From: Dermatophilaceae bacterium Soc4.6
GTDB taxonomy: Bacteria; Actinomycetota; Actinomycetes; Actinomycetales; Dermatophilaceae
DNA length: 64,000 nucleotides
NCBI GenBank assembly: GCA_039889245.1
Contig: JAZGVH010000002.1
Coordinates: 1,860,001-1,924,000 of the forward strand
Reading direction: 5' to 3'
Shown: positions 1-41,062 of the stretch, piece by piece
Layout: each line of letters begins with the position of its first letter
Position numbering within the stretch: position 1 is the stretch's first letter
Program-made: the position numbers and the translations under genes
Notes under the pieces: generated by a model
Databases searched by the model: none
What the model was told of the DNA's origin: nothing
Seen by the model: the letters and a program-made list of their open reading frames with translations, nothing else

Positions 1-360
1 CTCCAGCACGAACAACCGGGCGAGGACGGCGGACAGGTCGGCGTCGTCCGCCACCTCGACCCGCTCGTCATCGAGGGCCAGGTCGGCCGCACCGTCCGCC
101 ATGGCGAGCAGGCGCAGCACCTGGACGGCCCCGATCTTCGGAGCGACGCGCACCACGAGGTCGCCGCGCGCTACTGCCCCCACTGAGTACTCGGCCGTCA
201 CCTTCCAGCCCAGCTCGTGCGGGGTGGCCTTCACCAGCTGCGTCGTGTTGAGCGCAGCGGCCTCCGCGGTGGTGAGGTCGACCGGGTACAGCGTCTGTCC
301 CTCGGACAGCCGCTCCAGGTCACTGCGGCTCGGCAACCGCCTCACCCACTGGGGTGGCAC
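1..360 (-). CDS. mcrC: McrC-like subunit, N-terminal part only (runs off the window)
   Basis: Reading the minus strand from a GTG at 360 gives an open frame to the window edge. After a short leader it reads LSEGQTLYPVDL and later VRVAPKIGAVQVLRLLAMADG. The second stretch matches the McrC N-terminal pattern of a beta strand followed by PKIG and a leucine-rich helix. In McrBC systems McrC activates the McrB GTPase and carries a C-terminal PD-(D/E)XK nuclease, which would lie outside the window. The frame is closed by a TAG just upstream of 360, so the start cannot be much earlier. It overlaps the 3' end of the McrB gene by about 40 bases, as expected for a co-translated pair. The family call rests on about 120 residues plus context. 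Confidence 0.75.
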   Translation of the reverse strand, partial: MPPQWVRRLPSRSDLERLSEGQTLYPVDLTTAEAAALNTTQLVKATPHELGWKVTAEYSVGAVARGDLVVRVAPKIGAVQVLRLLAMADGAADLALDDERVEVADDADLSAVLARLFVLE

Positions 361-3013
361 CGGTGCCGGCTAGGCCGAGCTCGCGCACCCATGCGGGGAA
401 CGGGTACCAGGCGTCGACCTGCGCGTGCTTGCCATAGTGGTGCTCGACCAGCATCGGGCGCAGCTCACGGCGCCAGAGCCGGTCTAGCGCCGCCGGGGTC
501 TCGACGCCCTCTCGCATGAAGTACGACGGGCCGAAGGCCAGCGCAGGGTCCAAGCCACGCTTGGACATCTCGGCGTTGAGGCGGTCGCGAAGGTCGGCCA
601 GCTGCGTCGGGCGGCCGGTGGCCGCGCACCAGCGGTGGAGCATTCCCGTCAAGGCTGGCTCATCCGAGCCCATCGAGAGGAACACGAACCGGCGTCGCAT
701 CGCCGCGTCGAGCAGCGCGATCGAGCGGTCGGCGGTGTTCATCGTGCCGATGACGAACAGGTTGGGCGGAAGCGAGAAGCGCTCTCCCGCGCTGTACAGC
801 AGCTCAACCTCGGCCCCGCGGTACTCCAAGAGGAAGTAAAGCTCGCCGAAGACCTTCGCGATGTTCGCGCGGTTGATCTCGTCGATGACCAGCACGAACG
901 GCTTTCCCGGCGCGTTGCGGGCCTCGTCCGCGATGCGCTTGAGCGGCCCAGGTGTCACCGTCAGGGACGCTCCGCCAGCGTCCGAAGTCGCTACCGGCCG
1001 GAATCCCTCGACGAAGTCCTCGTAGGAGTACGTCGGGTGGAACTGCACCAGCGCCGACTGGGCCTCCGTCAGTCCGCAAGCCTCGAGAAGTGCCTGCACC
1101 AGGTACGTCTTGCCCGTGCCTGGCGGCCCCTCCAGCACCACCTGCCGGCGCTCATTGAGGCTGAGCAACAGCTCCTCGACCCACGACGAGTCCGCGTGAT
1201 GTAGCTTCTCCGCCAGCTCCTTCTCGTCGCAGGCCAGTACGGCGACCTCGACCGTGACCGGCTCGTCCTCGGTCTGCTCCGGATCAGTGACGGATGAGGC
1301 CAGAAGCTCGTCCATCTCACCGTCGCCTGGTTGGGTCAGCTCGTCGTCGCTGCCCGTGAGCTCCTCGAGAGGTCCGGCAAGATCAGTCAGGTCGAGGACG
1401 TCTTCACCCTTGAACCGCACTCGTGTCCGGATGCTGCCCGGCAGTGCCTTCACATCAGGAGCGACGTCGGCATACCAGCTGACTCCGCGCGTCAGAAGCG
1501 TCATCCCTCCGATGGACTGGAGCCGTGCCGCCTCGTCCAGCAGCCAACCCAACCGGAGCGCTCCGCCGTCGACGGTGGCGACGAGGTCGCCTCCCTTCAT
1601 CCCGAGTGCGAAGGAGAGCACGTCGCGCTTCTTGGCCTCCCGCTTCACCACCTGAAGGTCCCCGTAGTGCTCGTCCACCAGGTCGCCCAATGACTTCTGG
1701 GTCGGCTCCTTGGGCAGCTGGGTCAGCTTGCCGACGGTGATCGACACGATCCCCTGCCGCACCCAGGTGGGGACCCGGTTCTGCTGGTCGACCTCGCCGC
1801 GGACCAGCCAGGCCCGCTGCCCTCCGTCGTCACTCCACGCTTGGAGCAGCGGCGCCTGGTCGTAGCGAACCGCCGCGCCATCAGCTTCAGCCTGCAGTCG
1901 CAGCGTGACCGTCTTCAGGTCCTTCTCCACGTCCCCAGTCGACTCGCCGGGCTCGGTGCCAAGCGCAGCCACGATCGCCTGTCGGTCGGCTGGCCGCAGC
2001 ACAGTCGTGAACGAGGCCGGGTGGACGACGACGCACAGCAGCGCCGCGACGCGCTGATCGACACCCGGTGCTGCGGCGGCCAGGTCCCGAAACGCCCAGG
2101 GGTCGTCCCAGACCGCGTCACGCGTCTCAGCAGGCTGCTCATGCCAGTGCACCACGAGGTTCGCGAAGGATGACAGCATCAGCCACGGTGTCGCGATGAG
2201 TGCCTGACCGGCATGAACGAAGCCCTGTTCCAGGTGTGCAGACATCCTCCACGGCAGGCCGGGCGGCAGCTCTTTCGTGAGCAGCAGCGGACTGCGGACC
2301 CGGGCACGCTTCGTGGAGCCCCGCATGTCGCTGATGGGTGCGACAAGCAACACCCACATCTCGGCAGCGAGCACTCGTGCCGTGTCGAGCGCCAGCCCGG
2401 GCATTGGACCCGCCGGCGTCGGCTCTGCTGCCAAGTAGTCGCGCGCTGCGGTGGCGGCGTCGTGACTCCAGACGTTGACGCCGGGGACGAGTGCCGAGCC
2501 GCCGGAACGCCATGCCGCGATCACCGGCTCGGTGGACATCCGCGCGTGACTGAAACCGGTCCCGTCGTGTACGACCTGAGATGCGGTGTCGACCGAGGCA
2601 GGAGTCAGCGGAGCCTTCCGGAGGGCGTCCCAGTCGCGATAAGCCACGTCAGATGCTTCGTACAGCGACTGCGGGTCCGGGTGCTCGCCCAAGGCGTCCG
2701 CACCCTCCCTGGCTGCACGAAACCCGCCGTCGGACGTGGCGTGAAGCCAGCCGGCGTGCTCGTAGCTGGTCGTGAGCAGCCAGCTCATGTTGTTCCAGGC
2801 GCGAACTGCTCCGCTCTTCGTGACACTGCGGTCGTAGTCGTTGAGCGGCACCCGCGCCTCCGCCAGCGCCTGGAGCTTCGCCAACGGGATAGGCACCGGT
2901 TGCTGAAGCAGTTCCTCCAGCGCGGCCCGGAGCCTCAGTCGGTAGCGCTGGGTCCACTGCGGGTCCGGCGTCATGTGTGCCGTCGACGGAGCCGGGTCAG
3001 GCGTGATGGTCAT
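320..3013 (-). CDS. mcrB: McrB-like AAA+ GTPase (897 aa)
   Basis: Motor subunit of a modification-dependent (type IV) restriction enzyme. The C-terminal third has Walker A GPPGTGKT near residue 628, a Walker B region reading VLVIDEINRANIAKVFGEL, and the McrB signature MNTADRS near residue 757, followed by an arginine finger region (AMRRRFVF). The first ~600 residues are a long unassigned region, larger than the DNA-recognition domain of E. coli McrB, and may hold a different DNA- or protein-binding module. An acidic linker (SDDELTQPGDGEMDELL) separates it from the AAA+ domain. The ATG at 3013 overlaps the methyltransferase stop (ATGA). Known McrB proteins hydrolyse GTP and pair with McrC, which follows here. 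Finding it last but one in an operon with a methyltransferase and two helicases is unusual. Confidence 0.88.
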   Translation of the reverse strand: MTITPDPAPSTAHMTPDPQWTQRYRLRLRAALEELLQQPVPIPLAKLQALAEARVPLNDYDRSVTKSGAVRAWNNMSWLLTTSYEHAGWLHATSDGGFRAAREGADALGEHPDPQSLYEASDVAYRDWDALRKAPLTPASVDTASQVVHDGTGFSHARMSTEPVIAAWRSGGSALVPGVNVWSHDAATAARDYLAAEPTPAGPMPGLALDTARVLAAEMWVLLVAPISDMRGSTKRARVRSPLLLTKELPPGLPWRMSAHLEQGFVHAGQALIATPWLMLSSFANLVVHWHEQPAETRDAVWDDPWAFRDLAAAAPGVDQRVAALLCVVVHPASFTTVLRPADRQAIVAALGTEPGESTGDVEKDLKTVTLRLQAEADGAAVRYDQAPLLQAWSDDGGQRAWLVRGEVDQQNRVPTWVRQGIVSITVGKLTQLPKEPTQKSLGDLVDEHYGDLQVVKREAKKRDVLSFALGMKGGDLVATVDGGALRLGWLLDEAARLQSIGGMTLLTRGVSWYADVAPDVKALPGSIRTRVRFKGEDVLDLTDLAGPLEELTGSDDELTQPGDGEMDELLASSVTDPEQTEDEPVTVEVAVLACDEKELAEKLHHADSSWVEELLLSLNERRQVVLEGPPGTGKTYLVQALLEACGLTEAQSALVQFHPTYSYEDFVEGFRPVATSDAGGASLTVTPGPLKRIADEARNAPGKPFVLVIDEINRANIAKVFGELYFLLEYRGAEVELLYSAGERFSLPPNLFVIGTMNTADRSIALLDAAMRRRFVFLSMGSDEPALTGMLHRWCAATGRPTQLADLRDRLNAEMSKRGLDPALAFGPSYFMREGVETPAALDRLWRRELRPMLVEHHYGKHAQVDAWYPFPAWVRELGLAGTGATPVGEAVAEPQ

Positions 3014-6000
3014 GCCGACCTCTCAGTGCGTGCCGGCCACGGTCGTTCGGGGTGGCGGAGACCCGCGCCGGGTGGCGGGTCGAGTGGGGAGACGAACTGG
3101 ACCCCGGTTGCAGCTGCTTCGGCGAAGGCGTCGTACGCGGCGAAGACAATCCGCTTGGTCCGGTACTCACCCAAATCGCGCATCTCGTACTTGGCCATCA
3201 CTACGAAAGAATCAAGGACATGCTCGGCTTCGGCCCGCGACAGGCCGTAGACGTGCAGCATCGCGGCGTCGAGCTCTGCAATCAGCTGAGCGCGGCGTTC
3301 CGGAATCCAACGGAATGGTGCGCCGACCGACGAGCCGGCGGGCCATGCCAGAACGTCGCGGGCGTAGCCGGCCATCCTGTGGCTGGTGTATGCCAGCTCC
3401 AACACCCTTGGCCGGACGAAGTCCGCAAGGGTCGCGTTCGCCCACAAGACAGGCTGGTCGAACGTCGAAGGGGTCGGGCAGGCGAGTTGCTTGACAATAA
3501 AATAGCTCATTCCCGTTCCGCTGAGCTTCTGGCGGGCCACGTAGTCGTAGGCCATTGACGACCATACCGCTTGAAGAAGCGGACCGTGAGTTGGGTTGAG
3601 GGGGAATGCCAGCGGAAACTTGTGCCCCACTGCAGAGACGGGCAAGGCGCTGGGTATGAAGCACCTATACTGTTCCGCCTTCGTGATGTCGCGCCAACCG
3701 AGCAGCCAATCCCGGTCCCACCAAACGGGCAGCGCTTTCAAAATTGCGTCCTCGTCGACCCAGTACCGGGCCATTACATCAGCGTCCGCATTATCGAGTT
3801 GCAGAGTAGTCAGGCGTGGTAACGACCCGAGGTTCAGCTGTGCTTGGGAAGCGTTCGCGTAGGTGGCAAGCCGGTTGTTCCAGTGGGACAGCATCTTGGC
3901 CTCGTACAATGGCGGCAGGGTCCGTTCCGACGTCTCCCACGCCCAGCCGCCATAGGCCAACCCCTCGTCGGCGCAGTCGGAGGCGGATCTAAATAGGCCG
4001 CTATCGTTGGCCATGTCGAACAGGCGCACGAAGGTAAGGTTCCAGGAGTTTGCGCCGCCATCCCGGATCAGGACCGGGTGCCGCCTGTAGCAGCCCAAGG
4101 TGATGTCGGCGTCCACCCGTGACCGGAATACGGGTAGCGTGCCGGTGTTGGGATTGAGCAGCAGCACTTCTTCTGGGGCTAGAACGAATCGGCTCAGGGG
4201 GATGTCCGCCACATGCCGCACAACGAAGGCCAACTGCACGTCCGTTACACGCGCTCCACCGGTCATCGACGTGACGGCGAACCGGAACGCGTGATGTACA
4301 CCAGCGAACATGCGTGACTCGTTGTCGAAGTCGTAGAAGGCAGCCAGTCGCGCGCTGCCCAACGTCTCAGCGAAGAAGGCCGCGGTAGTGGCGTCGGTCG
4401 CCAGCCCGGTGGGCGTGATGATACCGCTGCGCCCAGCGGAGGCAAGGACGCCACGGAAATGCTCGGCGAACACCTGATATGTGTTCACATCCCCCACGCC
4501 AGTGAGCGGGTACCGGCCACTGGTACGCATGAAGTGGCTCTCGGCTTCCGAGCGACGCTTGGCGTTGTTGAACTCCACGAAGAGGGCATGGCGCTCCCCG
4601 CCCTCCAGGGCTGCGATCCCCTTCTTGCGGGCCGCGGCGTTCTTGGCCATGGCGATGTCCTCGGCGCGTGTGGCGAAGAACTCCTGCTCCTGGAGCTTGA
4701 CTCTTTCCCAAGGTGGATTCCCAAGAATCGATGCAAAACCACCCGTCCACCCGTACGTATCGCCGACAGGGCCGCCGTCGGCCATGCCGAAAACGTCGGG
4801 GAACTCTAGGTGCCAGTGGAAAAGTCGGTGGCGGGCGGCTATGACACTGACCGCGTCCAGGACTGTCTTGTCGGCGGTTCCGGCGGCGACGTCGTCCACG
4901 ACGGTGGTGGTGATCGGGACCGAGGTTGGGCTCTTCTCCACGAGGAACGCGGCGCACCAGGCGTCGGCGGCCAGGCGATGGCGTTCGCTCTCTAGGTCGT
5001 CTTCGAGGGTGGCATAGCGCTGGGCCGCGAAGGTGACCTCGGCAAGAGTGGCGGCAGCCCGCAGCGCCTGATTAACCTCAGCGGTGACAGTGCGGGCGTG
5101 AGCCGGGTCTAGGTCGACAGCGCCGTCGCTGAAAAGGTCGTCACCGCCGCGATTTGCGCGCTCGGCCTTGTTGGCCCTCCTCCACCGGGCGGCGACGGCC
5201 TTGTCATCACCAGTAAGGGCGGTGAAGGCATCGTCCGGGACGCCGTCTCTTAGGAGGGCCGGGGTGGCGCCAAGAAGGGCGTTGCCGACCTTGATGTGGT
5301 GGTCGAGGAACGACAGCGGCTTGCCGGGGGTCATCGCGGTAAGCCAGAGGCTGACTTTCGCGAGGTCGGCGGCCATCGGGTTGAGGTCAACCCCGTAGAG
5401 GCAGCTGCCGACCACGTCGTGGAGGGCGTCGGAGTAGTCGGTGGGCGTGGGGTCGAGCTCGCCGGTGCGCGCCACCGCTAGCCGCAGTGCGATCCGGCGG
5501 GCGGCAGCGACGAGGAAGTGCGCCGACCCGACCGCGGGGTCGCAGACCTTGAGGGCGAGCAGCGCCTCGGCCCGGTCCTCGGGTGTTCGGGTGCGTTTCT
5601 CGACGTCGTCCAGCACAGGGTCGAGCGCCGTGTCGAGGACGAGCTCGACAAGCTCGGACGGTGTGTAGTAGCTGCCGGAGGTCTTGCGGTCGTTGCCGGC
5701 CAGCGTTTCCATCGCGAACGTGTGGCTGAACGGGTCGTAGCGGGGCACGAGCTCCAGGAGCGACTCGTACACCGAGCCGAGTTCCTCGGCGCCGAGGTGG
5801 GCGAAGTCCACCATCCGCCGCAGCTCACCCTTCGGCTGCACCACAGACAGCGACCGGACGGCTGCGAGCAGCGCCGTGTTGGGGAGCCGGGATCCTGCCA
5901 GCACGTCGGCGGCGGTGGCGCTGAACAGGCCGCCGAGTCCCGGCAGTCCGAGGCGGGGCTCGCCGTCCGAGTGGGCGAGCGCGCTGAACACGAACGTCGA

Positions 6001-7074
6001 GGCCTGCCACAGATCGTCGTGACCGCTGCCGTGCCGCTTCAGCGCCAGGTCGCGCAGACGGGCCGAGGAGAAGTAGTCCTGGTAGCGATCCCGCTGGTCA
6101 GCGGTGGCATCCGGCGCCAGCAGTGCCCCACGGTCCTCAGCCACAGCCCAGAACAGCAGCCGGTAGACCGTCCGCAGCAAGGCGGCGTGGACGTCTGAGA
6201 GCTGGACAGAGCCGTCCGCGAGGGCCTGGCGCAGCGCGGAGTTCGGGGGGTGTTGGAGGAACCCCGTGCCAAGGGTCTCCAAGGCTCTCTCGACCCCGTC
6301 GCGGAGCAACGTCAGGGCGCGTACACCCTGGCCGATGGCCGTGGTACGCCACCGTTCTAACCAGCATGAGGCCGGAGTAGCGGGGCCGGCCGCTTCGACG
6401 CGAGACTCGTGAGCCAGCAGGTACAGCAGGGTGAACTCGGAGAAGAGCTCGGCGTCGAACATCGCCTCGAGGTCGAACTCGACGTAAGCGAACCCGGCCA
6501 GCGTGGTGGAGTCGCGCAACAGGCGCAGGGTCCGGCCGTTGGTGAGGATCGCCCACAGGAAGTCGTCGTTCCGGTTGAGCAGCTCCTGCACCATGGCGTG
6601 CGGGGCGCGCGCAGCGCCGGCGACGCCAGGGCTCCGCGCGTCGAGGGGCACGCCCCACCCGAGCTGGTGGATGGGATTGCTCCCCCACAGGTGGCTGACG
6701 GGGTACTGCTTGATCGCTGTCCCCTCGCCGGCAGTGAGCCCGCCGGCGGGGGTGACCGGGACCCTGCCGTAGCCGAGCTCGGCGAAGACCTGGCTGAGCC
6801 AGCGCTCGCGGGTGACCGCCACGGCCGGGTCGCCTGCAGCGAGCGCGGTGAGGTCATCACGGAAGCGTCGGTAGGTGGCGAGCAGGTGGGTCCAGGCGCG
6901 GGCAGCTGCTTCGCGGGGAGTCTCGGAGCCGAGGTGATAGTCGGTCCCCTTGAGGCCGTCGATGGTGCCAGCAAGCACGGCCGTGACGACGTCGTTGGGC
7001 AGCAGGCCGCCGACGACGCGGACGGTCGACAGGCGGGCGGCGCCGGTGGCGGCCGAAGTGTGCTGGGCGCTCAC
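3010..7074 (-). CDS. Large adenine-specific DNA methyltransferase (1354 aa), DrmMI/PglX/Eco57I type
   Basis: Probable N6-adenine DNA methyltransferase using SAM. The SAM-binding region reads CDPAVGSAHFLVAAARRIA at about residue 508, preceded by the YYTPSELVELVLDTAL helix seen in Eco57I/PglX enzymes. The catalytic motif NPPW is at about residue 785. A further conserved stretch, LYGVDLNPMAADLAKVSLWL, follows motif I. The N-terminal ~450 residues and the long C-terminal region probably serve target recognition. The ATG at 7074 overlaps the helicase stop by 4 bases, and its own stop overlaps the mcrB start. In DISARM class 1 (DrmMI) and BREX (PglX) such enzymes mark host DNA. By analogy it may mark self here, which is inference. 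No separate nuclease domain was recognised within it. Confidence 0.85.
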   Translation of the reverse strand: MSAQHTSAATGAARLSTVRVVGGLLPNDVVTAVLAGTIDGLKGTDYHLGSETPREAAARAWTHLLATYRRFRDDLTALAAGDPAVAVTRERWLSQVFAELGYGRVPVTPAGGLTAGEGTAIKQYPVSHLWGSNPIHQLGWGVPLDARSPGVAGAARAPHAMVQELLNRNDDFLWAILTNGRTLRLLRDSTTLAGFAYVEFDLEAMFDAELFSEFTLLYLLAHESRVEAAGPATPASCWLERWRTTAIGQGVRALTLLRDGVERALETLGTGFLQHPPNSALRQALADGSVQLSDVHAALLRTVYRLLFWAVAEDRGALLAPDATADQRDRYQDYFSSARLRDLALKRHGSGHDDLWQASTFVFSALAHSDGEPRLGLPGLGGLFSATAADVLAGSRLPNTALLAAVRSLSVVQPKGELRRMVDFAHLGAEELGSVYESLLELVPRYDPFSHTFAMETLAGNDRKTSGSYYTPSELVELVLDTALDPVLDDVEKRTRTPEDRAEALLALKVCDPAVGSAHFLVAAARRIALRLAVARTGELDPTPTDYSDALHDVVGSCLYGVDLNPMAADLAKVSLWLTAMTPGKPLSFLDHHIKVGNALLGATPALLRDGVPDDAFTALTGDDKAVAARWRRANKAERANRGGDDLFSDGAVDLDPAHARTVTAEVNQALRAAATLAEVTFAAQRYATLEDDLESERHRLAADAWCAAFLVEKSPTSVPITTTVVDDVAAGTADKTVLDAVSVIAARHRLFHWHLEFPDVFGMADGGPVGDTYGWTGGFASILGNPPWERVKLQEQEFFATRAEDIAMAKNAAARKKGIAALEGGERHALFVEFNNAKRRSEAESHFMRTSGRYPLTGVGDVNTYQVFAEHFRGVLASAGRSGIITPTGLATDATTAAFFAETLGSARLAAFYDFDNESRMFAGVHHAFRFAVTSMTGGARVTDVQLAFVVRHVADIPLSRFVLAPEEVLLLNPNTGTLPVFRSRVDADITLGCYRRHPVLIRDGGANSWNLTFVRLFDMANDSGLFRSASDCADEGLAYGGWAWETSERTLPPLYEAKMLSHWNNRLATYANASQAQLNLGSLPRLTTLQLDNADADVMARYWVDEDAILKALPVWWDRDWLLGWRDITKAEQYRCFIPSALPVSAVGHKFPLAFPLNPTHGPLLQAVWSSMAYDYVARQKLSGTGMSYFIVKQLACPTPSTFDQPVLWANATLADFVRPRVLELAYTSHRMAGYARDVLAWPAGSSVGAPFRWIPERRAQLIAELDAAMLHVYGLSRAEAEHVLDSFVVMAKYEMRDLGEYRTKRIVFAAYDAFAEAAATGVQFVSPLDPPPGAGLRHPERPWPARTERSA

Positions 7075-9947
7075 TGTGCGCCTCGCGTGGGCATGAGTAG
7101 CTGGACGCTAAGGATGTCGACGGGCTGCTGGGGGGTGACGCTCAGACCGCGGCGGGAGCGTTCGGCGTCCCTGGTGGAGCCGGCGCGGGCTCGCAGGTGC
7201 GCATCGAGGAGCCGCTGCGCGCGGTGCTCGGCCACCTGAGCCAGGACCGGCTGGAGGGCGCCCAACCCGGTGAGGACGCCACTCATCCACTGATGGGCAA
7301 CTGGAAGCGGCACGTTGCCAGCGGGCTGAGCGTCGACGAGGCGTTCGGCCTCGTCGTCGACGAGCCATGCAGCCGCGTCCGGGGCGCCCTCGAAGGCGAG
7401 GACGCAGGCGTCCTCGGCGACCTTCTGCTGAGGCCCGGATGGGGTCGGCAAGGTCAGGTGGAACCGCAACCGGACCAGCAAGAGGGTCGTGCGGGTGCGG
7501 ACGGCCTCGGTGAGCATCACGCCGGCGCGGCGAGCGGGTCGATCGTGGGGGGCAACGGTGGAATCCAGGGCGCTCTCGAGCACGTAACGGGCCAGCGCTT
7601 GCACGACTGGGTCCGTGCGGGCGATGACTGCGTGGCCGCGGTCTGCGGGTGGGTCGGCGTGAAACGGCAACGGGTCGTGCAGGCTGGGCGGGAGGCTGGT
7701 GCGGGCGCCGAGGGGCAGGGTGCCGGTCACTGCAGTGAACCCATCGTCCGTGCCGGTGATCGTGGAGCCGAGAGAGCGCAGAGAGGCGGTGAGGAACTGT
7801 CGGAGGTCGCCGTGAGATCCGAGGGCAGCGCGGACGTCCTCGACCTGCTGAGCGACCTCTTCGGGCTGGATGGTGTTCTGCGCGAATCGGGCCCGCGAGG
7901 CCTTCTCCTTCTCAGCTGCCGATGACCAAGCCTGCTCGAGCTCGGCGGCCTTGGCGTTGAGGTCGATGTCGAGCAGCAGCTGGTCACGAGACGACTCCCC
8001 GCGAAGCAGCAGCCCCTCGGCGAGTGCGTCGATGAGTCCCTGACCATCACCGGGGATCGGCACGGCGACGCCGGTGGCCTTGGCGATGGCGCGGTGGCGG
8101 CGGATGAGGACGTCCAGGACGATCCCGTCGATGCCGTTGTCTTCGCCGTAGAGAGTGATGGCACGGACGATGTCTTTGCGCTGGAGGTAGCGGTCGACGC
8201 GGCCCTCACGCTGCTCGTGTCGGGTCGGGTTCCAGCACAAGTCGTAGTGGACGACCGCCGAGAAGCCCTGCTGGAGGTTGACGCCTTCGGACAGGCAGTC
8301 GGTGGCGATGAGGACGTGCATGCCGTCGGTGGCGGTGAGCTCGGCGACACGACGTTCGCGCTCAGAGGGTGGAAGCTGTCCCGTGACGCTGATGACCGTC
8401 ACTGGGGCGGTTTTGGTGCCCAGCGTGCCTGCGAGGTGCTCGGCGACGTAGTGGGCGGTGTCGATGAAGCGGCAGAAGACGATGGGGTTGTCGCCGCCGG
8501 CGAGCAGCGTCTTCACCTGCTGGGTGAGACTGCCGAGCTTGCGGTCCTGAACGGGGCCTTGGAGCTGGGCGGCGCGGTTGGCGAAGTCCAGCAGGCGTCG
8601 GCGCTCGGTGGCGCTGGGCGTGGTGGCTACGTCGGTCCCCATCTCAGCGTCGGTCTCCACCAGGGCGCCGGGGGTAGTGTCCATCCCCTCGAGCGACTCG
8701 TCGTCGCTCTCGTCGAGAACGGCCGCGCGGCCGAGGATGTCGGCCTCGGCGACGGTGGTGGCTTCGCTGTTGGCGGCGCGGGTGCGCAGGGTGGCCTCGG
8801 CGGCGCGAGGGCTGGAGGCCAGTGCGCGGAGCAACGCCAGGACGGACCACCAGCGCACCCGAGCCTTGGCACTGCCGGCGTCTTGCTGGACCTGGTCGCG
8901 CGCGTAGGCGAGGACGTCGTCGAACAGGTCGCGGTAGGCCGGCGACAGGCTGTACGCCACGTCGAGGGTGAGTCGGTCTTTGGGAAAGGGGGTGTCTTCG
9001 TCGAGGTAGCGGCGGATGTCGCCGCGGCGTCGCTGCACGAAGTGTCCGGCGAGCAGCTCGCGACCCTTGGTGCTGGTCAGGTCGGCGGTGCCGAGGTCGG
9101 GGTGGAGAAGGCCGACCAGGTTGGCGAAAGCCTCGTCGTCGCCCGAGTGTGGGGTCGCTGTGGCGAGGATGAGGTGGCGACTCTTGTCCGCGGCGAGCTC
9201 GCGCAGCAGCTCGTAGCGCTGGTGGCGGCCCCTCTGGCCGATACCGGAGCCCGCGACGTTGTTGTGGGCCTCATCCACGATGACCAGCTCGGGGCAGCGG
9301 AGCAAGAACTCGTGGCGGCGGCGGTCTGACTTGATGAAGTCGGTGGAGACGATGACGTGTGGGTAGCGGTCGAAGAGCGACTCGTTCATCATCAGGCCGC
9401 GCTCGAGGCTTTTCACGGTGCTGGTCAGCAGCAGGACGGCGTCGATACCGAACTTCGTCGAGAGTTCGCGCTGCCACTGCTCGGCGAGGGCCGGCGAGCA
9501 CAGCACCGCCATCCGCTGAGCCGAGCCTTGGGCGAGGAGCTCGACGGCGATGAGGCCGGCCTCGACGGTCTTGCCGATGCCGACGTCGTCGGCGATCAGG
9601 AGGCGGACGACGTCTTGCCGCAAGGCCATGAGCAAGGGGACGTACTGGTAGCTGCGCGGGCTGACCGAGATGCCGGCGAGCGACCGAAACGGTCCGGCGC
9701 TGGAGGTGAACCCGACGCGCAGTGCGGTGCGCAGCAGGGCGGTGGAGGTGCTGTCTCCGAGGTCGTCAAGGGTTGGGATCGGGAAGGTGGCGGCTTCAAC
9801 GCCTTCGTCGGGGAAGACCCCTGCGACATCGGCGCTGCCGCCGCCGAGTGGCTGAAGGAGCATGAAGTCGGACGTGGTGCCGGGGAGGACAACCCACTCC
9901 CGGCCGCGGGCGCGGACCAGGCTGCCTACGGCGTGCGAGGTGCTCAT
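7071..9947 (-). CDS. SNF2-family helicase, DrmD-like (958 aa)
   Basis: ATP-dependent DNA translocase of the SNF2 superfamily. Visible motifs are the Walker A stretch ADDVGIGKTVEAG around residue 117, VDEAHNN (motif II, DEAH) around residue 222, LATATPHSG (motif III), and a C-terminal helicase domain with ATDCLSEGVNLQQ and REGRVDR (motifs V/VI) around residues 545-585. Size and motif style match the DrmD helicase of class 1 DISARM. An ATG at 9947 is preferred over an upstream in-frame start because it overlaps the preceding stop as ATGA, the pattern used throughout this operon; the upstream extension would run about 30 codons into the previous gene. It is followed by the methyltransferase, and DrmD-DrmMI adjacency is the rule in class 1 DISARM. 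Confidence 0.85.
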   Translation of the reverse strand: MSTSHAVGSLVRARGREWVVLPGTTSDFMLLQPLGGGSADVAGVFPDEGVEAATFPIPTLDDLGDSTSTALLRTALRVGFTSSAGPFRSLAGISVSPRSYQYVPLLMALRQDVVRLLIADDVGIGKTVEAGLIAVELLAQGSAQRMAVLCSPALAEQWQRELSTKFGIDAVLLLTSTVKSLERGLMMNESLFDRYPHVIVSTDFIKSDRRRHEFLLRCPELVIVDEAHNNVAGSGIGQRGRHQRYELLRELAADKSRHLILATATPHSGDDEAFANLVGLLHPDLGTADLTSTKGRELLAGHFVQRRRGDIRRYLDEDTPFPKDRLTLDVAYSLSPAYRDLFDDVLAYARDQVQQDAGSAKARVRWWSVLALLRALASSPRAAEATLRTRAANSEATTVAEADILGRAAVLDESDDESLEGMDTTPGALVETDAEMGTDVATTPSATERRRLLDFANRAAQLQGPVQDRKLGSLTQQVKTLLAGGDNPIVFCRFIDTAHYVAEHLAGTLGTKTAPVTVISVTGQLPPSERERRVAELTATDGMHVLIATDCLSEGVNLQQGFSAVVHYDLCWNPTRHEQREGRVDRYLQRKDIVRAITLYGEDNGIDGIVLDVLIRRHRAIAKATGVAVPIPGDGQGLIDALAEGLLLRGESSRDQLLLDIDLNAKAAELEQAWSSAAEKEKASRARFAQNTIQPEEVAQQVEDVRAALGSHGDLRQFLTASLRSLGSTITGTDDGFTAVTGTLPLGARTSLPPSLHDPLPFHADPPADRGHAVIARTDPVVQALARYVLESALDSTVAPHDRPARRAGVMLTEAVRTRTTLLLVRLRFHLTLPTPSGPQQKVAEDACVLAFEGAPDAAAWLVDDEAERLVDAQPAGNVPLPVAHQWMSGVLTGLGALQPVLAQVAEHRAQRLLDAHLRARAGSTRDAERSRRGLSVTPQQPVDILSVQLLMPTRGAQ

Positions 9948-12900
9948 GCGTTGCTGCTCCTTCCGCGACCGAACAGCCACTCGTTCTGGTCGGCCAGGGT
10001 GGCCCAGTCGTCGTCGTACCGGAATCTGATCACAAGCCACGACGCATCGGTCAGGCGGGTTTCGGCCTGGCGGTCACGCTGCTGTTGGGTGTCGGTGTCG
10101 TGGTGCGGGCCGTCAACGAAGATGGCGACGGGGATGTTGCCGTCGTAGACGAAGTCGGGTCGGGCACGGCAGGCCTCGATCGTCCGCTGGGCGTCGTCGG
10201 GGAGGTGGCGCCCCGTGGACTGGAGCCAGGCGATGAAGCGGGATTCCAGCGTCGAGTCGCCGAGCTTGGTGAGCCATTTCGCTTGGTCCGTGCGGCGGCG
10301 TCCCCCAGCGCCGGCCTCGACCCGGGCGTCGAGGAGGCTGCGGAGGATCTCGACCACGCTGTGCCGGTTGATGAGCGCGTGCTCGTACTGGTTGCCGTAG
10401 GAGAGCAGGCAGTCGTAGCAACCGCGCTCGCAGCGGACACGGGCCCCGGCGGCGTGCTCGAGGTCGGCGCCGGTCTCCGCGTCGTAGTGGATGATCTCGA
10501 GCGCCCTACGGGCCACTCGCTGGATGGCGTCGGGCTCGTCGACCAGTCGCCGCAGGACGCCGGCACCGCCCTCTGCGGCCTCCGTGAGCAGCATGCGGCC
10601 CTGCTCGGTGGCGTCGGGCAGTTCGCGGCTGTCGAGCTCGGCGTCCTCGAGCTGGAACTCGACCTCGATGGCCCGCTCGAGTGCCGCACGCAAGGAGACC
10701 GCGACCTCCTCCTCAAGGTGGGTTGCGCTGCGGATAATGAGAATGTTGCGGCGGTCCTGCACGAAGGGGACCACCTTCTCGCGCTCCTTGACGTCCTGGG
10801 CGTCGGGGAGACCGTCCGTGTCGACGGTGGCGTCGGTCGCCTGCTTGTCGCTCAGCCAACGGCCTTCGCGAAGGTCGAGCCAGAAGCCGCGCTCGTCGGG
10901 GTTCTTGCGCCGCCGCCGTCCCACGTTGGTGATCCGCATGTCTGCGGCTTCGGCGTGGGTGAGCTCGAGGATCGTGGTGCCGTGCCGTCTCACGTCGGCG
11001 CGGATGCGGTCGGGGGCTCCGCCACGGGCCGGGAAGCGGTAGGAAACCTCGAGTTCGAAGCCGGAACGACGGCGTTCCTCCTCGTCGCTGCTGATCCGCT
11101 CACGGCGGCGGGTGAACACGGTCTGGAGCCGCAGGAGGCCGTGCTGGGTGGCGCCGAGGGGTTCACCACAGTTCTCGCACACGTCAGTGCCGACCTGCAC
11201 GGGGTGGTGGTAACCGCAGCCGGGGCAGCGCTTGGCGGTCTCCGTGATCGCTCCGCCCCCGCTCGTCTCGCCGGGGTCGCGGGGCAGCTGGATCCGCGTG
11301 ACCTCGTATCGGGAGCCCTCGTGGTAAATGAGGCTGTTGGGCCCGAACTCGGAGATCGCCAGAAAGCGGGGGCGCTGCAAGTAGTCGCCGTCGTGCCTGC
11401 CACCGCGGCGGGCTGGGATGTAGGCAGCCAGCGGCAGCCGCGGGAAGGAGTAGCCGGGCAGGAACCCCTCGCTGGCCAGGTAGCGATAACTGTAGAAGTC
11501 GTTAGCGCCGACCTCGGAGTCGTCGTTGCGGAGCAGCCGGAGCTGGTTGCGCGCGTCGGTGCGTCGTCGCTCGGCGATGGTGCGGTCGTACTTGGTGGCC
11601 GTGGTGCTGAGTGCGAGCTTGTGCTGCTCGTTGGCCTCGGTCAGGGCTGTCCGGTAGAGCGTCCGCCACCGGTCGAACGCGTCGTCGAAGGATTGGTGTG
11701 CGCGCGCGACCTGGTCGTGGACCCACACATCAGACCACCACGCGGGGTCTCCCCCGTCGAGCTGCCAGGTTGTCCGCAGTCCGGCCAGGACGCGCTCGGC
11801 GCGGTGTTGCGCCCGGCGGGCGACGTCGGCGCCGGTGACGGCACGCCACAGGTCGGGGAACAGCGTGTAGCTGGGCTGGTCGCCGTCGGCGTCGATGAGG
11901 GAGGTGATGGAGGACTTCATCGACTCGTTCGTCTCGGCCAGCCAGATGGCGTGGACGTGCGAGCGCACGAGGTCCTCGTTGGTTAGGTCGAGACGAGGGG
12001 CGATGACGGAGCCCGCGACCATCTCGCGGGAGCGGCGGAACCAGTAGCTGTCGTGGGCGTTGCCGGTGGAGCAGTAGGTCAGGACGAGCGCCTGCTGCCC
12101 GCTGCGGCCTGCGCGCCCCGAGCGCTGCGCATAGTTTGCGGGCGTCGGCGGGACGTTGCGCATCGCGACGGCATTGAGGTCAGAGATGTCGACACCGAGC
12201 TCCATGGTCGGCGAGCAGTACAGGAGCGGGAGCTCACCGGCGCGGAACTGACGTTCGCGGTCGAGGCGGTCCTGCGGTGGCACCTGTGCGGTGTGCTCGC
12301 GGGCCAGCAGCCCGGAGAAGCCGCGGGCCAGGTCGCGGTAGAGCTCGCGGAAGAAGGGGTTGACCCGTGCGGTCTCTTCGCCGGCGAAGGACCTGCGCAG
12401 GGGGTCGCCAGCGCCGGTGCTTCCGTCACCGGCCACCCAGCGGAGCGCGCCGGCGTTGATGCGGTACTCGCTGCCGTCCGGGCCCTCGCTTTGCGCCAGC
12501 ACGCCAGCGCGCGCCAGGACCCGAAAAAGGTCGAGGATGACCCGGTGCGAGTCGTCAGACTTCAGCGAGGCGTTGCCCGGTAGGCCAGCCACGTCGCGTC
12601 GCAGGTACTTGCCGAACGCACCCCGTCCGGAGACCGCGAGCACCGTGCGCCGCCCTCCCGCCTTGGCCGGCCGCGGGATCGCGATGCCGGCCTCGACCAT
12701 CCGGTCGTCATCGCCCAAGCTCCACGGCTCGATGAGATGGGCGCGGGTGAGGCGCTTGAGCCGCTCGAAGCCGTCCTCTGTGAGGCAGTCGACGGCGATC
12801 GCGCGGACGCGACGCAGCTCGTCGAGCAATATCTGGCACAGCTCTTGTCGCTGCGCGGCGCTGATCTGGTCGAGGAGGTAGGTGCCTTCCCACGACTCCT

Positions 12901-15175
12901 CGTCCTCGGCGAGCTCGGGCAGGTCGCGGTAGGCGAGCTTGACTAGGCCGGTCTGCTCGAGGTTGGGCATGGTGACGCGCCAGCCGCGCTGGAGGTCGAC
13001 GTACAGCTGGTACTCGACCGCGGCGCGGAGTGCTCGCTCGGCGTCCTTCTTGGCCCCGAACTTGGCTTCGGGCGCTTGAGCGAAGTCGACCATCTTCAGG
13101 TCGAGGGTGTCGGTGACGGCGTCGCTGAGGACGTCGTGGGTCAGCCCCCCGGGTCCGGCCTTCACCAGCGCCGCGTAGAGGGCGGCGCGCAGTTGGGAGA
13201 CCTGGACGAAGTCGTTGAAGTGGCCTGCCTGAAGGCTGGCGTCCTGTCGGTTGTCGACGAAGGTCAGCAGCTTGCGTGCCGTCGGTGGCAGCTGGGACTC
13301 GGGCAGGCTCTTGAGGCTGCGGACCACCGACGCGGACAGCAGCGTGACCGCGCTGGAACGGCCTTCGGCGTCGAGCGTGGCGAGCTTGCCGAAGTCCTGA
13401 CCGCGGACCTGTTCGTAAGAGACTCCGCAGCGCATGCAGAACGCGAAGGGGGTGGAGACGAACCAGGCCTCGAGACCGGTGCGGGTGTTGTCCACGCCGC
13501 CGTCCGGGCGCAGCCACACGGCACTCGGCAGGTACTTCCTCTTGCTCTCGATGACCTCGACACGGTCCGTCCCGGGGTCGGTGACCAGCCACGGTTCGGG
13601 GACCCGGTTGATCTCGGTGGCCTTGTCCGGCCACGGGTAGTCGGAGGAGATGTAGAGGTAGCCGGTCACGGCATCGCCACCGCTGGCGTCAGCATCGCGA
13701 CGCGACACGAACTGGCTCTCCCCGTTGACCGTGGTGCGGGCGACGACGAGGTACTCCTGACCGCATTCGCGGCAGAAGCCCAAGGGCAGCAGCGCCTTGT
13801 CAGGGTGCCCGGGCACGCGGACCTGGTAGTTACCGGTGATGTGGCGGGTGAGCTCGGGTTCCAGGGACACGTACACCGTGTCGCCCTTGGACAGGAACTG
13901 GTGGAGACGGAACGCGAAGATCGGCCGCTTGCTCGTCGGATGGGTGACGGTCGACCCCTCGCGCAGGACGTTGCGCAGTGCCACGGCGCACGCCAGCCGG
14001 TCGACGTCGGTCAGCTCGGCCAGCGTCTCAGCGGCTTCGGGCAGTGTGGTGGGCGGTCGGCGGACCAGTCGCTGCCCACCATCCGCCGTCACTTCGTGAG
14101 CGAGGCCGAACGTGGTCTCGACCCAGCTGGTCAGTGGGTCGCTGATGAAGGATTCGAACGGTCGCCGCTGCTGACTCTCGTTCGCGCTGACCGCATTTGC
14201 CAGTAGGGCACCGTTGGCGTCGACGTCCGGGGTAGCCCGCACCAGCGTCTCCCCCACCACGTGTTCAGGCCGGACGTCGGTGCCGAAGATGCGGGTCGCT
14301 ACGCCGGCCACCACGCGAGCACGATCCTCGATCGTGCCCTCGCTCGACATCGTGGCGCTGGTTCCGATGAGTTGGAGGTCGTCAGCTTGGCATTCGTCAC
14401 GCAGGCGGCGGATCAGCATCGCCACGTCCGCGCCCTGCCTGCCGCGGTAGGTGTGCAGCTCGTCCAACGCCAGGAAGCGGAGCCCCTGTGCGGCCCGGAC
14501 CAGCTGGTTGCGTTCGTCCGGGCGCGTCAGCACCAGGTCGAGCATCACGTAGTTCGTCAGCAGGATGTCCGGTGGGTCTGCGAGGATCCGGCGCCGCTCA
14601 TCCGCCGTCTCCTGGCCGGTGTACCGGGCGAACGTGACCGGCTCCCCACACTGGGGATAGCCGAACTGCAGAAACTTCCGCAGTTCCTCGACCTGGGAGT
14701 TGGCCAGCGCATTGGTCGAGTAGACGATGATCGCCTTCACCCCGGGACGGCGGCTGCCCCGATCATCGTGCTCGCGGAGCACCGCGTCGACGATGGGGAC
14801 GATGTAGGCCAGGGATTTGCCCGAGCCGGTGCCGGTCGTCAGGACGTAGCTCGCGCCCGTCCGGGCGATCTCAACCGCCTGGCGCTGATGACGGTGCAGA
14901 ACGATCGGGTCACGGCCGGCGTCTTGTGGGTCGGACTTGTGGCGGAAGATCCGCTCCGTCTCCGGGTGCAGCAGACCCTCTCGGACAAGCTCCGGTACGG
15001 ACCCGCCCGTCGCAAAGGAGGGGTTCAGCCCAACCCACGGGTCGGGCCACTGCACACCGTCGTCGAACTGCTGGTGGACGAATGCCTTGATGCGCTCGTC
15101 CCGTACCTCCACGAACCCCGACGTGAACGCGCGGTAGTCGGCGATCACCTGCTCATGGACCTTGAAGACGTCCAT
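9944..15175 (-). CDS. Giant DEAD-box helicase with DUF1998-type C-terminus and terminal nuclease-like domain (1743 aa)
   Basis: First gene of the defence operon. Helicase motifs: Walker A TGTGSGKS near residue 114, DELH near 237, GTSATMSS (motif III) and SGRAGRSGQQ (motif VI) near 1019. The region around CPGCGYHH and CENCGEP is a zinc ribbon, and CERGCYDCLLSYGNQYEHALINR near 1580 is the cysteine cluster typical of DUF1998/MrfA-type helicases. The last ~90 residues (LESRFIAWLQ ... PDFVYDGNIPVAIFVDGPHHD) resemble a Vsr/DUF559-like PD-(D/E)XK fold, with a plausible E, D and D-containing core. DISARM normally splits helicase (DrmA) and DUF1998 (DrmB) into two genes, while Druantia DruE is a single giant helicase with DUF1998. 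This protein matches the single-chain layout and adds a nuclease-like tail. The subfamily assignment is inference. Confidence 0.82.
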   Translation of the reverse strand: MDVFKVHEQVIADYRAFTSGFVEVRDERIKAFVHQQFDDGVQWPDPWVGLNPSFATGGSVPELVREGLLHPETERIFRHKSDPQDAGRDPIVLHRHQRQAVEIARTGASYVLTTGTGSGKSLAYIVPIVDAVLREHDDRGSRRPGVKAIIVYSTNALANSQVEELRKFLQFGYPQCGEPVTFARYTGQETADERRRILADPPDILLTNYVMLDLVLTRPDERNQLVRAAQGLRFLALDELHTYRGRQGADVAMLIRRLRDECQADDLQLIGTSATMSSEGTIEDRARVVAGVATRIFGTDVRPEHVVGETLVRATPDVDANGALLANAVSANESQQRRPFESFISDPLTSWVETTFGLAHEVTADGGQRLVRRPPTTLPEAAETLAELTDVDRLACAVALRNVLREGSTVTHPTSKRPIFAFRLHQFLSKGDTVYVSLEPELTRHITGNYQVRVPGHPDKALLPLGFCRECGQEYLVVARTTVNGESQFVSRRDADASGGDAVTGYLYISSDYPWPDKATEINRVPEPWLVTDPGTDRVEVIESKRKYLPSAVWLRPDGGVDNTRTGLEAWFVSTPFAFCMRCGVSYEQVRGQDFGKLATLDAEGRSSAVTLLSASVVRSLKSLPESQLPPTARKLLTFVDNRQDASLQAGHFNDFVQVSQLRAALYAALVKAGPGGLTHDVLSDAVTDTLDLKMVDFAQAPEAKFGAKKDAERALRAAVEYQLYVDLQRGWRVTMPNLEQTGLVKLAYRDLPELAEDEESWEGTYLLDQISAAQRQELCQILLDELRRVRAIAVDCLTEDGFERLKRLTRAHLIEPWSLGDDDRMVEAGIAIPRPAKAGGRRTVLAVSGRGAFGKYLRRDVAGLPGNASLKSDDSHRVILDLFRVLARAGVLAQSEGPDGSEYRINAGALRWVAGDGSTGAGDPLRRSFAGEETARVNPFFRELYRDLARGFSGLLAREHTAQVPPQDRLDRERQFRAGELPLLYCSPTMELGVDISDLNAVAMRNVPPTPANYAQRSGRAGRSGQQALVLTYCSTGNAHDSYWFRRSREMVAGSVIAPRLDLTNEDLVRSHVHAIWLAETNESMKSSITSLIDADGDQPSYTLFPDLWRAVTGADVARRAQHRAERVLAGLRTTWQLDGGDPAWWSDVWVHDQVARAHQSFDDAFDRWRTLYRTALTEANEQHKLALSTTATKYDRTIAERRRTDARNQLRLLRNDDSEVGANDFYSYRYLASEGFLPGYSFPRLPLAAYIPARRGGRHDGDYLQRPRFLAISEFGPNSLIYHEGSRYEVTRIQLPRDPGETSGGGAITETAKRCPGCGYHHPVQVGTDVCENCGEPLGATQHGLLRLQTVFTRRRERISSDEEERRRSGFELEVSYRFPARGGAPDRIRADVRRHGTTILELTHAEAADMRITNVGRRRRKNPDERGFWLDLREGRWLSDKQATDATVDTDGLPDAQDVKEREKVVPFVQDRRNILIIRSATHLEEEVAVSLRAALERAIEVEFQLEDAELDSRELPDATEQGRMLLTEAAEGGAGVLRRLVDEPDAIQRVARRALEIIHYDAETGADLEHAAGARVRCERGCYDCLLSYGNQYEHALINRHSVVEILRSLLDARVEAGAGGRRRTDQAKWLTKLGDSTLESRFIAWLQSTGRHLPDDAQRTIEACRARPDFVYDGNIPVAIFVDGPHHDTDTQQQRDRQAETRLTDASWLVIRFRYDDDWATLADQNEWLFGRGRSSNA

Positions 15176-15600: not shown

Positions 15601-16362
15601 TCAGGGACAGGCGGAGCCCGTGAACGGACAGATGCTCAGGTCGAACACGGTCTGCTCGAGGATCGTGGCTGGAAGTCCTGTGGGAGCGGGCCCTGGTGGC
15701 CTGACCATGAAATCGAAGGACAGCCAACGCGCCAGGCACAGGAGGCTCACGTGTCCTGCCCCAGCAGCGCGGAGAGCAGCCACTGCGGACAGTGGCTTGT
15801 TTCCCGACGTCCACGTGTCCTCAATGAGCAGCACGTGACTGTCGGCCGGGAGCCGCTCGGCGGCGACGAACAGGTCGGGTTGCACTCGCTGCCTTACCGC
15901 GGCCACTTCGGGGTTGTGTCGCATCGGGTGCAGAGGCCACGGCAGGAACGGGCGCACCATATGCTCGAGTGGGTGTCCATCCGGTCGGGCCTTCGTCGAC
16001 GGAACAGTGGCGCAGTGTGTGACGCGGCTCCCTACCAGTCGCTCGGCGCACCGAGCATGAGCGAATCCGCGAGCAGCCAGTAGCTTGACGATGGCCTGCT
16101 GGTCGATGGTCGCTGCGGGGTCCTTGTACCCGTACATGAGCGTGCCCGCCGTCGTGCCGTTCGCACCGTACGCCAGAAAGCCAGCGGCGGAGGGTTGGTC
16201 GCCCGGGGCGTAGCAGCTGCAGGTGTAGCAGGTCTCAAATCCGGGATTCGCGCTACCTCCGCACAGCCGGCATGCTCCTGCGCTCCGCCAGACATTGCGC
16301 AGGTAGGTGCCAGCGAGGGTTCCCAGGAAGCTTTGTGGGTCGATCTGGGCAGGTCCAGTCAT
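15601..16362 (-). CDS. ComF-like phosphoribosyltransferase with N-terminal zinc finger (253 aa), PsyrT-like
   Basis: The N-terminus has two close cysteine pairs (CRLCGG and CYTCSCY, residues ~35-55), forming the zinc finger of ComF-type amidophosphoribosyltransferases. The PRPP-binding loop reads VLLIEDTWTSGNKPLSAVAALRAAG in the C-terminal half; the DTWTSG core replaces the usual DDVxTTG. The ATG at 16362 overlaps the stop of the DprA-like gene, so the two are translationally coupled. A phosphoribosyltransferase paired with a DprA-like protein is the composition I recall for the PsyrTA toxin-antitoxin/anti-phage system, with the PRTase as toxin. A competence role for ComF is less likely because no other com genes are present. 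The family call is solid; the PsyrTA assignment is inference from the pair. Confidence 0.75.
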   Translation of the reverse strand: MTGPAQIDPQSFLGTLAGTYLRNVWRSAGACRLCGGSANPGFETCYTCSCYAPGDQPSAAGFLAYGANGTTAGTLMYGYKDPAATIDQQAIVKLLAARGFAHARCAERLVGSRVTHCATVPSTKARPDGHPLEHMVRPFLPWPLHPMRHNPEVAAVRQRVQPDLFVAAERLPADSHVLLIEDTWTSGNKPLSAVAALRAAGAGHVSLLCLARWLSFDFMVRPPGPAPTGLPATILEQTVFDLSICPFTGSACP

Positions 16363-17273
16363 AGGGAGGCAACGAGCATGTCGTCCAGGGTGGACAGGCT
16401 TGTCGTCCTCGTGACCAGCGAGACGGCGTCATGCATTTCGGCCCGTGACGTGACGACGTGCACGTTGGCTCGCTGACCGTCGGCGAGAGCCCGGCCCCAC
16501 TGAGTGCGTTCGACGACGCGGTCCGTGAGAATCACCGGGCGACCGTGCTGCATGGCGAGGCGGGCTTGCGCTCGGGCTCCGCTGGTCTCCCCTGCTTCGA
16601 TGACGAAGGTAGCGAAGCCCAGTCCGCTCATCGTGGCGTTTCGCTGCAGGAAGGTGTGGCGGAGGGCGTGGGCGGAGGGCCAGAACTGCGAGACGAGCGC
16701 CCCACGAGCAGCCACTGCGTCGTGAAGGTCGCGGGAGGAGGCGGGGGTGTAGGTGCCCGCGATACCGCTGGCGATAACTCCCAGTGCGACCCCGCCGGCC
16801 TCCAGCGCAGCGGTGTGGGCTGCGAAGTCGATGCCGCGCGCCAGCCCTGAGATGACGGCTATTTGGCGCTCGACGAGGTGCCGTGCGACGTCGGCCGCTC
16901 TCTGGGTGCCCTCGGGCGAGGCGTCTCTGGACCCGACCACGGAGATGCCGCCGGACTGCACGACCCCAAGCTCGCCCCGGTAGAAGAGGAAAGGGGGAGC
17001 ATCGTGAACGCTTCGCAGCCGCCTGGGGTAGTCAGCCCGCAGGATCGAGGTGAAGCGATAGCCCTTGACCCGCCAGTCGCGAACCTCATCAGAGGCGCGC
17101 TCAAGCAGGTCGTCATGCGCCGATCCGAGTAGGTCTGGGGGGAACCTCTCACGCCAGACGTCATTGACGCCGTCGGTGAGGACCTCAGACACGAGTGATG
17201 CGACGGTCTGCCCACTCCCTCGGTTGGTCACGAGGGCGAGGAGTAGGGCGTCACTTTCGTCTATTTCGCGCAT
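16359..17273 (-). CDS. DprA-like nucleotide/DNA-binding protein (304 aa), PsyrA-like
   Basis: Rossmann-fold protein of the DprA/Smf family. Signature stretches: FLFYRGELG, ISVVGSRDASPEGTQRA (the VGSR motif), VISGLARGIDFAAHTAAL (the SGxARGID loop) and FVIEAGETSGARAQARLAMQHGRPV. The ATG at 17273 has GAGG a few bases upstream and starts MREIDESDALLLALV; longer in-frame starts lack a ribosome site and add low-complexity residues. Length matches short DprA proteins. It precedes the phosphoribosyltransferase and overlaps it by 4 bases. In competence DprA loads RecA on single strands, but a DprA plus PRTase pair in a defence island points to a PsyrTA-like toxin-antitoxin unit, with this protein as the neutraliser. 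Confidence 0.8.
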   Translation of the reverse strand: MREIDESDALLLALVTNRGSGQTVASLVSEVLTDGVNDVWRERFPPDLLGSAHDDLLERASDEVRDWRVKGYRFTSILRADYPRRLRSVHDAPPFLFYRGELGVVQSGGISVVGSRDASPEGTQRAADVARHLVERQIAVISGLARGIDFAAHTAALEAGGVALGVIASGIAGTYTPASSRDLHDAVAARGALVSQFWPSAHALRHTFLQRNATMSGLGFATFVIEAGETSGARAQARLAMQHGRPVILTDRVVERTQWGRALADGQRANVHVVTSRAEMHDAVSLVTRTTSLSTLDDMLVASL

Positions 17274-17413
17274 AGGACCTCGCTCATGGTTTCGATCATA
17301 TGTTCGACCACCGACATGACCGTCCGTCGGCTCGACGCCGCTTGCGCCATGGTTGCACAGGCCCGTGGCACTCATTTGAAGGCCTCCGGGAGCGGCGGAG
17401 GCGATTCCGGACG

Positions 17414-21125: not shown

Positions 21126-21707
21126 CGTCACGACCCGGCTCACCGGCACCGGGGGGCACCACCGGTCCACCCGCGCAGCGGGTGCCAGACGTGTGGAGCG
21201 GGAAGAGGATGGTGTTGGTGCCGGGCGGGTGGATGCCCTGTGGGCTTGGGGCGGCGGAGGCTCGAGGGCGGCCCGTGGTGGCGCGTCGATGGCCAGGAGC
21301 GGAAGGGCCGATGGAGGGGCTTCGGGGTGACGGCCGGTCCGAGGACTCAGGCGGGCACGATGGGTGAGACGGTCATGGACGTGTCGTCCTCGGTGACGAT
21401 GTCGGTGCCCGAGGGCAACCAGACGTTGGGGCCACGACGCCATTGCACGGTGACGCCGGACCAGGGCCGGGGAGGGTCAGGCCGGGTTTCCAGCCAAGCA
21501 GTAGCCGTTGAGGTTCGGTCCGGTGACGTCCTCGGGCGGCGGTACGACGGCCCGGGCCCTGGAGGTCGCCGCCGGCGAGCCGTATCTCGCCTGCCGTGCA
21601 GCAAGTACGCCGGCCCGTCGTCCACCCGACAGAGCGCGGGGATCCCATGGTGACCCGCCATCGATGGTGAACCTCGGCGACCACCTCGACGACCCAGGAG
21701 ACGAACC
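21126..21707. other. Intergenic region upstream of the relaxase; likely location of oriT
   Basis: About 580 bases between the divergent relaxase (minus) and the 91-aa gene (plus). Relaxase genes commonly lie beside their oriT, so the nic site may be here, but I could not identify a specific nic sequence. A minus-strand frame ending near 21357 reads VTVQWRRGPNVWLPSGTDIV and could be a short conserved peptide. It lacks a clear start and ribosome site, so it is not called. Confidence 0.35.
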
Positions 21708-40674: not shown

Positions 40675-40815
40675 ATCACGTACAGGCGCAGCTGGCGTTC
40701 GGCGATCAACTGGCCGTCGACGTCGAATGGTGGCGCCGAGCCGCGCGGCCGACCGCGCGTCCCAGCATCTAGACCCATGGCTTCCCCTCTCAGATGGTCG
40801 ACAGGCGGCGAAACG

Positions 40816-40965
40816 GGTCAGCCGCTCTCGCGGCGGTGGGGGACGGCCGCTCTCGCGGCGGTGGGGGACGGCCGCTCTCGCGGCGGTGGGGGACGGCCGC
40901 TCTCGCGGCGGTGGGGGACGGCCGCTCTCGCGGCGGTGGGGGACGGCCGCACGCGCGGCGGAAGG
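40816..40965 (+). repeat. Hairpin repeat site D (six perfect-period 25-bp units)
   Basis: GCCGC stems start at 40821, 40846, 40871, 40896, 40921 and 40946, a strict 25-bp period. The first five have loop TCTC and the sixth has ACGC, and the last ends GCGGCGGAAG like site B. Units join without spacers through GGTGGGGGAC. It separates the CBASS operon from the SIR2 gene. It creates long open frames in several frames, which should not be read as protein. Confidence 0.9.
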
Positions 40966-41050
40966 ACACGGCTGCTTATCGGCGGTCTTGGGCAGCGAGT
41001 GGCTCGCTTCATGGTGGACCGACCGGTGGTTTGATAGGCGACACATACGG

Positions 41051-41056
41051 AAGGAG
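41051..41056 (+). promoter_or_regulatory. Ribosome binding site AAGGAG fixing the SIR2 gene start
   Basis: AAGGAG lies 6 bases before the GTG at 41063. The open frame continues about 340 bases further upstream through repeat site D, so this site decides the true start. Confidence 0.75.
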
Positions 41057-41062
41057 CCCGCT

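Follow-up and report, generated by a model that had tools for sequence, protein, structure and literature searches.

ARMADA anti-phage systems are defined, in the available part of their description (Bell et al. 2025, PMC12458937), by a YprA homologue accompanied by BrxHII/RapA-like and PglX-like genes. In the Type I form, which is common in Actinomycetota, the same text places the YprA gene generally first and predicts the Vsr-type C-terminal nuclease to be active. The Type II form, represented by the system of E. coli NCTC 12900, has the order ArmA-ArmB-ArmC-ArmD, with the helicase third and a GajB-like ArmD bearing a RelE-like N-terminus. As reported in that part of PMC12458937, Type II was tested against phage, all four of its genes were required, and cells survived infection. 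The validated system is thus of Type II, and we found no experiments on Type I or on an ARMADA-McrBC operon in the literature available to us. A DISARM-like cassette of YprA, SNF2 and PglX genes is often linked to non-CoCoNuT McrBC with an NxxD-type McrB, according to the portion of Bell et al. 2024 at hand (PMC11090510, green group of Figure 2), and the link of this cassette to canonical McrBC is restated, with reference to PMC11090510, in the corresponding portion of PMC12458937.

Here we analyze an operon at the left end of a 64,000-nt stretch of DNA (G000:C2 1860001-1924000, hereinafter designated the window). The operon is very probably an ARMADA Type I anti-phage system whose transcription unit also includes a type IV restriction pair, a canonical McrBC.

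Gene order and overlaps of the operon

The genes of the operon are the following (window coordinates unless C2 is given).

9944..15175, minus strand: ARMADA Type I YprA-like helicase (ArmC homologue), first gene, 1743 aa
7071..9947, minus strand: RapA/SNF2-type helicase (BrxHII/DrmD-like; ArmA homologue), called as an open reading frame at 10040-7071
3010..7074, minus strand: putative PglX/DrmMI-like N6-adenine methyltransferase (ArmB homologue), 1354 aa
320..3013, minus strand: McrB, 897 aa
1..360, minus strand: N-terminal part of McrC, cut by the left edge of the window
G000:C2 1859125-1860360, minus strand: McrC, entire in the genome, 411 aa, PF10117
C2 1857836-1859128 (L002:12836-14128), minus strand: sixth co-directional gene, left of the window, 430 aa

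The five overlapping reading frames of the window all lie on the minus strand, in agreement with the single co-directional operon proposed by the first-pass annotation from the letters alone. Direct reading of the sequence also confirms its count of four consecutive junctions overlapping by at least 4 bases. The helicase/SNF2, SNF2/methyltransferase and methyltransferase/McrB junctions are 4-base overlaps (ATGA, GTGA and ATGA, respectively, the first provided that the SNF2 gene starts at ATG 9947), and McrB and McrC overlap by 26-41 bases depending on the choice of start. A further 4-base overlap (GTGA) joins McrC to the sixth gene. For the SNF2 gene, ATG 9947 is a more probable start than GTG 10040, because a GGAG precedes the ATGA overlap and the alignments of many homologues begin only at about residue 31-35.

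Encoded proteins and comparison with described systems

The first protein carries the core motifs of a DEAD helicase (Walker A GTGSGKS at 115, DELH at 238 and motif VI QRSGRAGR at 1017) and a zinc-binding MZB/DUF1998 domain (CERGCYDC at 1582), both domains being recognized by Pfam, and in the PDB it is related to YprA (6znp) and to two large helicases, 9tu7 and 9wae. The Vsr-type nuclease residues E1644, D1674 and H1692 are all present at its C terminus. The model of this tail, comprising the last ~100 residues, is predicted with high confidence (pLDDT 83) and in fold comparison resembles the catalytic domain of the homing endonuclease I-Bth0305I (3r3p, Z 8.7) and E. coli Vsr (1cw0, Z 8.4 over 91 residues, rmsd 2.5); the Z values are moderate, and both top rows are Vsr-type nucleases. 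A sequence profile search of the PDB with the tail returned no clear nuclease match, whereas the fold comparison did. The invariance of E, D and H in our alignment is not independent evidence, since the aligned homologues were chosen for an intact tail. For a BrxA-like helical insertion after RecA1, a hallmark of the ARMADA lineage, a sequence profile of residues 282-480 alone gave no meaningful PDB match.

The second protein is of the DpdE/DrmD/BrxHII type (PADLOC DpdE/DrmD models, 1e-303 and 2e-77), and the third is a DrmMI/PglX-type methyltransferase (DrmMI, 1e-57) with motifs DPAVGS at 512 and NPPW at 786. McrB contains an AAA+ GTPase domain (GPPGTGKT at 629, VIDEINR at 709 and the signature NTAD at 759) and matches a solved McrB structure (9e-41); its long N-terminal part matched no Pfam family. 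McrC belongs to PF10117 (2e-55), matches 6ut5 in the PDB and displays a PD...DTK nuclease motif. The pair thus combines the NxxD signature of McrB with the PF10117 domain and PD-(D/E)xK motif of McrC, all three being features of McrBC type IV restriction. As judged from their residues, the catalytic motifs are intact in every enzyme of the operon. These profile searches, which the first-pass annotation had proposed, and the fold matches bear out its gene identities and its nuclease-like helicase tail. The matches to known families are far stronger than chance would give.

The sixth protein matched no Pfam, NCBIfam or PADLOC model, and fold comparison returned nothing useful for its structure, predicted at pLDDT 64 with long helices. 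Within the family, 31 of 188 genomes contain homologues of it; among the copies sampled, at least five adjoin ARMADA genes and the majority lie elsewhere. We considered the gene as a core component of ARMADA and rejected it, because most of its occurrences are not next to ARMADA.

The succession of a YprA-like helicase with DUF1998/MZB, a BrxHII/RapA-like helicase and a PglX-like methyltransferase, together with a Vsr-type C-terminal nuclease retaining its catalytic residues, is shared with ARMADA Type I. The present copy differs by the addition of McrBC and the sixth gene; PMC12458937, in its available part, mentions the McrBC link but not as a defining component. The NxxD McrB and the cassette of YprA-DUF1998, SWI2/SNF2 and PglX genes are also those of the green McrB group of PMC11090510, a likeness of description rather than of gene order, since the available part of that paper gives the group as a genomic association only. 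Homologues of ArmA, ArmB and ArmC are held in common with ARMADA Type II. Unlike in Type II, the helicase gene comes first here, McrB and McrC follow the methyltransferase, and the operon is devoid of ArmD.

Druantia and DISARM class 1 each resemble the operon in part. DruE is the closest helicase by PADLOC profile score (9e-95), a match that appears to agree with the published kinship of ARMADA. Druantia, however, has other partner genes and no SNF2 or PglX-like gene of the present kind, and no Druantia partner model matched the SNF2, PglX-like, McrB or McrC proteins. DrmD-like and DrmMI-like genes are shared with DISARM class 1, of which the operon could be a variant with fused DrmA and DrmB. 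DISARM has separate DrmA and DrmB genes and a drmC phospholipase-D gene, whereas here the helicase and DUF1998 reside in one protein that ends in a Vsr-type tail, and DrmC is absent. The helicase also scores far better against DruE than against DrmA (2.5e-18), and the SNF2 protein reaches only 285 bits against the NCBIfam DrmD model, under its 610-bit cut-off. We regard a DISARM class 1 variant as scarcely credible.

The simultaneous matches to DruE, DrmD/DpdE, DrmMI and McrB models would also suit a new hybrid defence system pieced together from components of DISARM, Druantia and McrBC, and the first-pass annotation knew of no described system with exactly this set. That statement proved wrong: in the available parts of the two papers, the trio already has a name, ARMADA Type I, and a clade of its own (PMC12458937), and its link to McrBC has been published (PMC11090510). 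The mixed scores reflect the age of the library, since the PADLOC-DB of 2023 predates ARMADA. The five-gene set is therefore of an already described kind, ARMADA coupled to McrBC. With its genes largely accounted for by ARMADA Type I and the published link, a new hybrid is very improbable, and the striking gene mix is now settled as a described system.

McrBC, the helicase nuclease and their distribution

Homology argues for a machine in which the YprA-like and RapA-like helicases would translocate on invading DNA while the PglX-like enzyme would mark or license host DNA by N6-adenine methylation, allowing self to be told from non-self. Both the Vsr-type helicase tail and McrBC would then cut DNA that lacks the mark; within McrBC, McrB is predicted to be a GTP-driven motor paired with the PD-(D/E)xK nuclease McrC. 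Motors, a self/non-self methyltransferase and one or two nucleases are the best-supported reading of the encoded domains. McrBC classically recognizes modified cytosine, and phage DNA may therefore be caught by the operon whether it is modified or not.

Of the genomes searched, the helicase is present in 7 of 188 from the same family, 28 of 346 sampled from the class and 17 of 246 sampled across the phylum, and it was also found at 22 loci of our genome collection. The recurrence of the gene order, left as a check by the first-pass annotation, is borne out in many other genomes, and the genera in which McrBC accompanies the cassette include Nocardioides, Microbispora, Sphaerisporangium, Planomonospora, Nonomuraea and Actinomadura. 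In a 61-row tree built from the SNF2 partner by a quick method, every McrBC-bearing locus falls within one 46-row actinobacterial clade with support 99. McrBC lies directly downstream of the cassette at 28 of the 41 determinable loci inside this clade and at none of 11 outside, a locus being determinable if sufficient DNA follows the methyltransferase (only 2.7-3 kb for some Streptomyces loci; in the set L004-L025, downstream DNA extends to 10 kb past the helicase). The first-pass annotation had named absence of McrBC from nearly all relatives as counting against its own reading; this is not the case, since McrBC is the majority state in the clade. The fewest changes that explain McrBC on the tree are four, and it seems to have been gained about once, having joined ARMADA Type I within a single actinobacterial clade, most sampled members of which retain it.

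Most Streptomyces members of the clade are without McrBC. There, the methyltransferase is followed by an EcsC-family gene (L014:22584-23711, directly 3' of the ARMADA Type I methyltransferase, in the place that McrBC takes elsewhere), by a homologue of the sixth gene (L019/L063 and L126) or by other genes. ARMADA Type I also occurs elsewhere in the phylum as a three-gene set without McrBC. Being absent from many ARMADA Type I loci, McrBC is at most an accessory partner outside the one clade.

This distribution bears on whether ARMADA Type I and McrBC are two independent systems that share an operon for regulation only and each work alone. The three-gene sets elsewhere in the phylum and the Streptomyces relatives would fit such independence, and McrBC normally acts alone. 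The adjacency is nevertheless kept across many genera of one clade, at 28 of 41 determinable loci, which points to selection for co-expression; physical coupling does not follow from it. We consider full independence a serious possibility, though not the favoured one.

The state of the helicase tail, for which an intact score required E, D and H together in the alignment, differs across the tree. The nuclease motif is broken at 30 of 41 loci inside the McrBC clade and at 1 of 11 outside (intact at 11/41 versus 10/11); sorted by McrBC content, the tail is intact at 7 of 28 loci with McrBC and at 14 of 24 loci without it. At least six changes are required to explain these states. By contrast, every McrC whose sequence extends far enough has its motif intact; at seven loci the sequence ends before the motif. 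This pattern suggests that McrC may have taken over cutting from the helicase tail in the McrBC clade.

The pattern is, however, confounded by kinship. Streptomyces has broken tails, yet mostly no McrBC, and a comparison of McrBC presence with nuclease decay in independent pairs on the tree yielded only four pairs and no significance, for which reason we treat the link between McrBC and decay as a hypothesis. In its full form, McrBC would have become a working part of ARMADA Type I, after which the Vsr-type nuclease was no longer needed and underwent repeated decay, so that McrC remained to serve the helicase-methyltransferase machine as its nuclease; we put this forward tentatively and rate it as somewhat unlikely. 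In the present operon, the Vsr-type tail and McrC both look intact by motif, so any hand-over is not complete here. The available part of PMC12458937, which calls the ARMADA tail predicted active, contains no mention of tail decay that we found. The repeated breakage within this clade raises a testable question, namely which nuclease cuts in ARMADA, and a wider one, whether a defence system can swap its effector while its motor and methylation parts stay.

The tail domain is kept with its catalytic residues lost at L005, L006, L012, L015, L017, L025, L099-L101, L117-L119, L132-L134 and L136-L139 and at Streptomyces loci.

The integrative element and its other defence genes

An integrative conjugative element of ~79 kb, with the operon at its left end, is inserted in tRNA-Phe and contains the whole window. 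Its boundaries and further genes are listed below.

G000:C2 1855911-1935364 (L002:10911 to L144:11364): integrative conjugative element
C2 1855911-1855986: tRNA-Phe, left boundary
C2 1935301-1935364: copy of the 3' part of tRNA-Phe, right boundary, with 44 identical bases (att repeat)
L144:9728-11218: tyrosine integrase beside attR (PF00589)
L002:11748-12578, plus strand: Abi_C-domain gene (PF14355, 7.5e-15), between attL and the operon and convergent with the sixth gene
Window 15601..16362, minus strand: phosphoribosyltransferase-like (PRTase) protein of a ShosTA-like pair
Window 16359..17375, minus strand: DprA/ShosA-like protein of the same pair (ShosA model, 2e-53)
Window 18147-21443: TrwC relaxase
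Window 38487-39530, plus strand: CBASS-like cyclase
Window 39820-40674, plus strand: 1TM effector
Window 40727-44542, plus strand: Dsr1/SIR2 gene
Window 46219-47961: TraG/TraD coupling protein

In a search for an empty attachment site in the congener G397, alignment was confined to the left flank and the copy of the tRNA.

The DprA-like and PRTase-like genes overlap by 4 bases. We considered both as members of the ARMADA operon and rejected them: the pair is separate from ARMADA, because no homologue occurs in the other ARMADA loci compared. Phage defence by ShosTA-like DprA/PRTase pairs has been demonstrated in E. coli. The CBASS-like cyclase, the 1TM effector and the Dsr1/SIR2 gene are consecutive on the plus strand (window 38487-44542), and the element is thus also loaded with CBASS-type, Dsr1/SIR2 and ShosTA-like defence genes.
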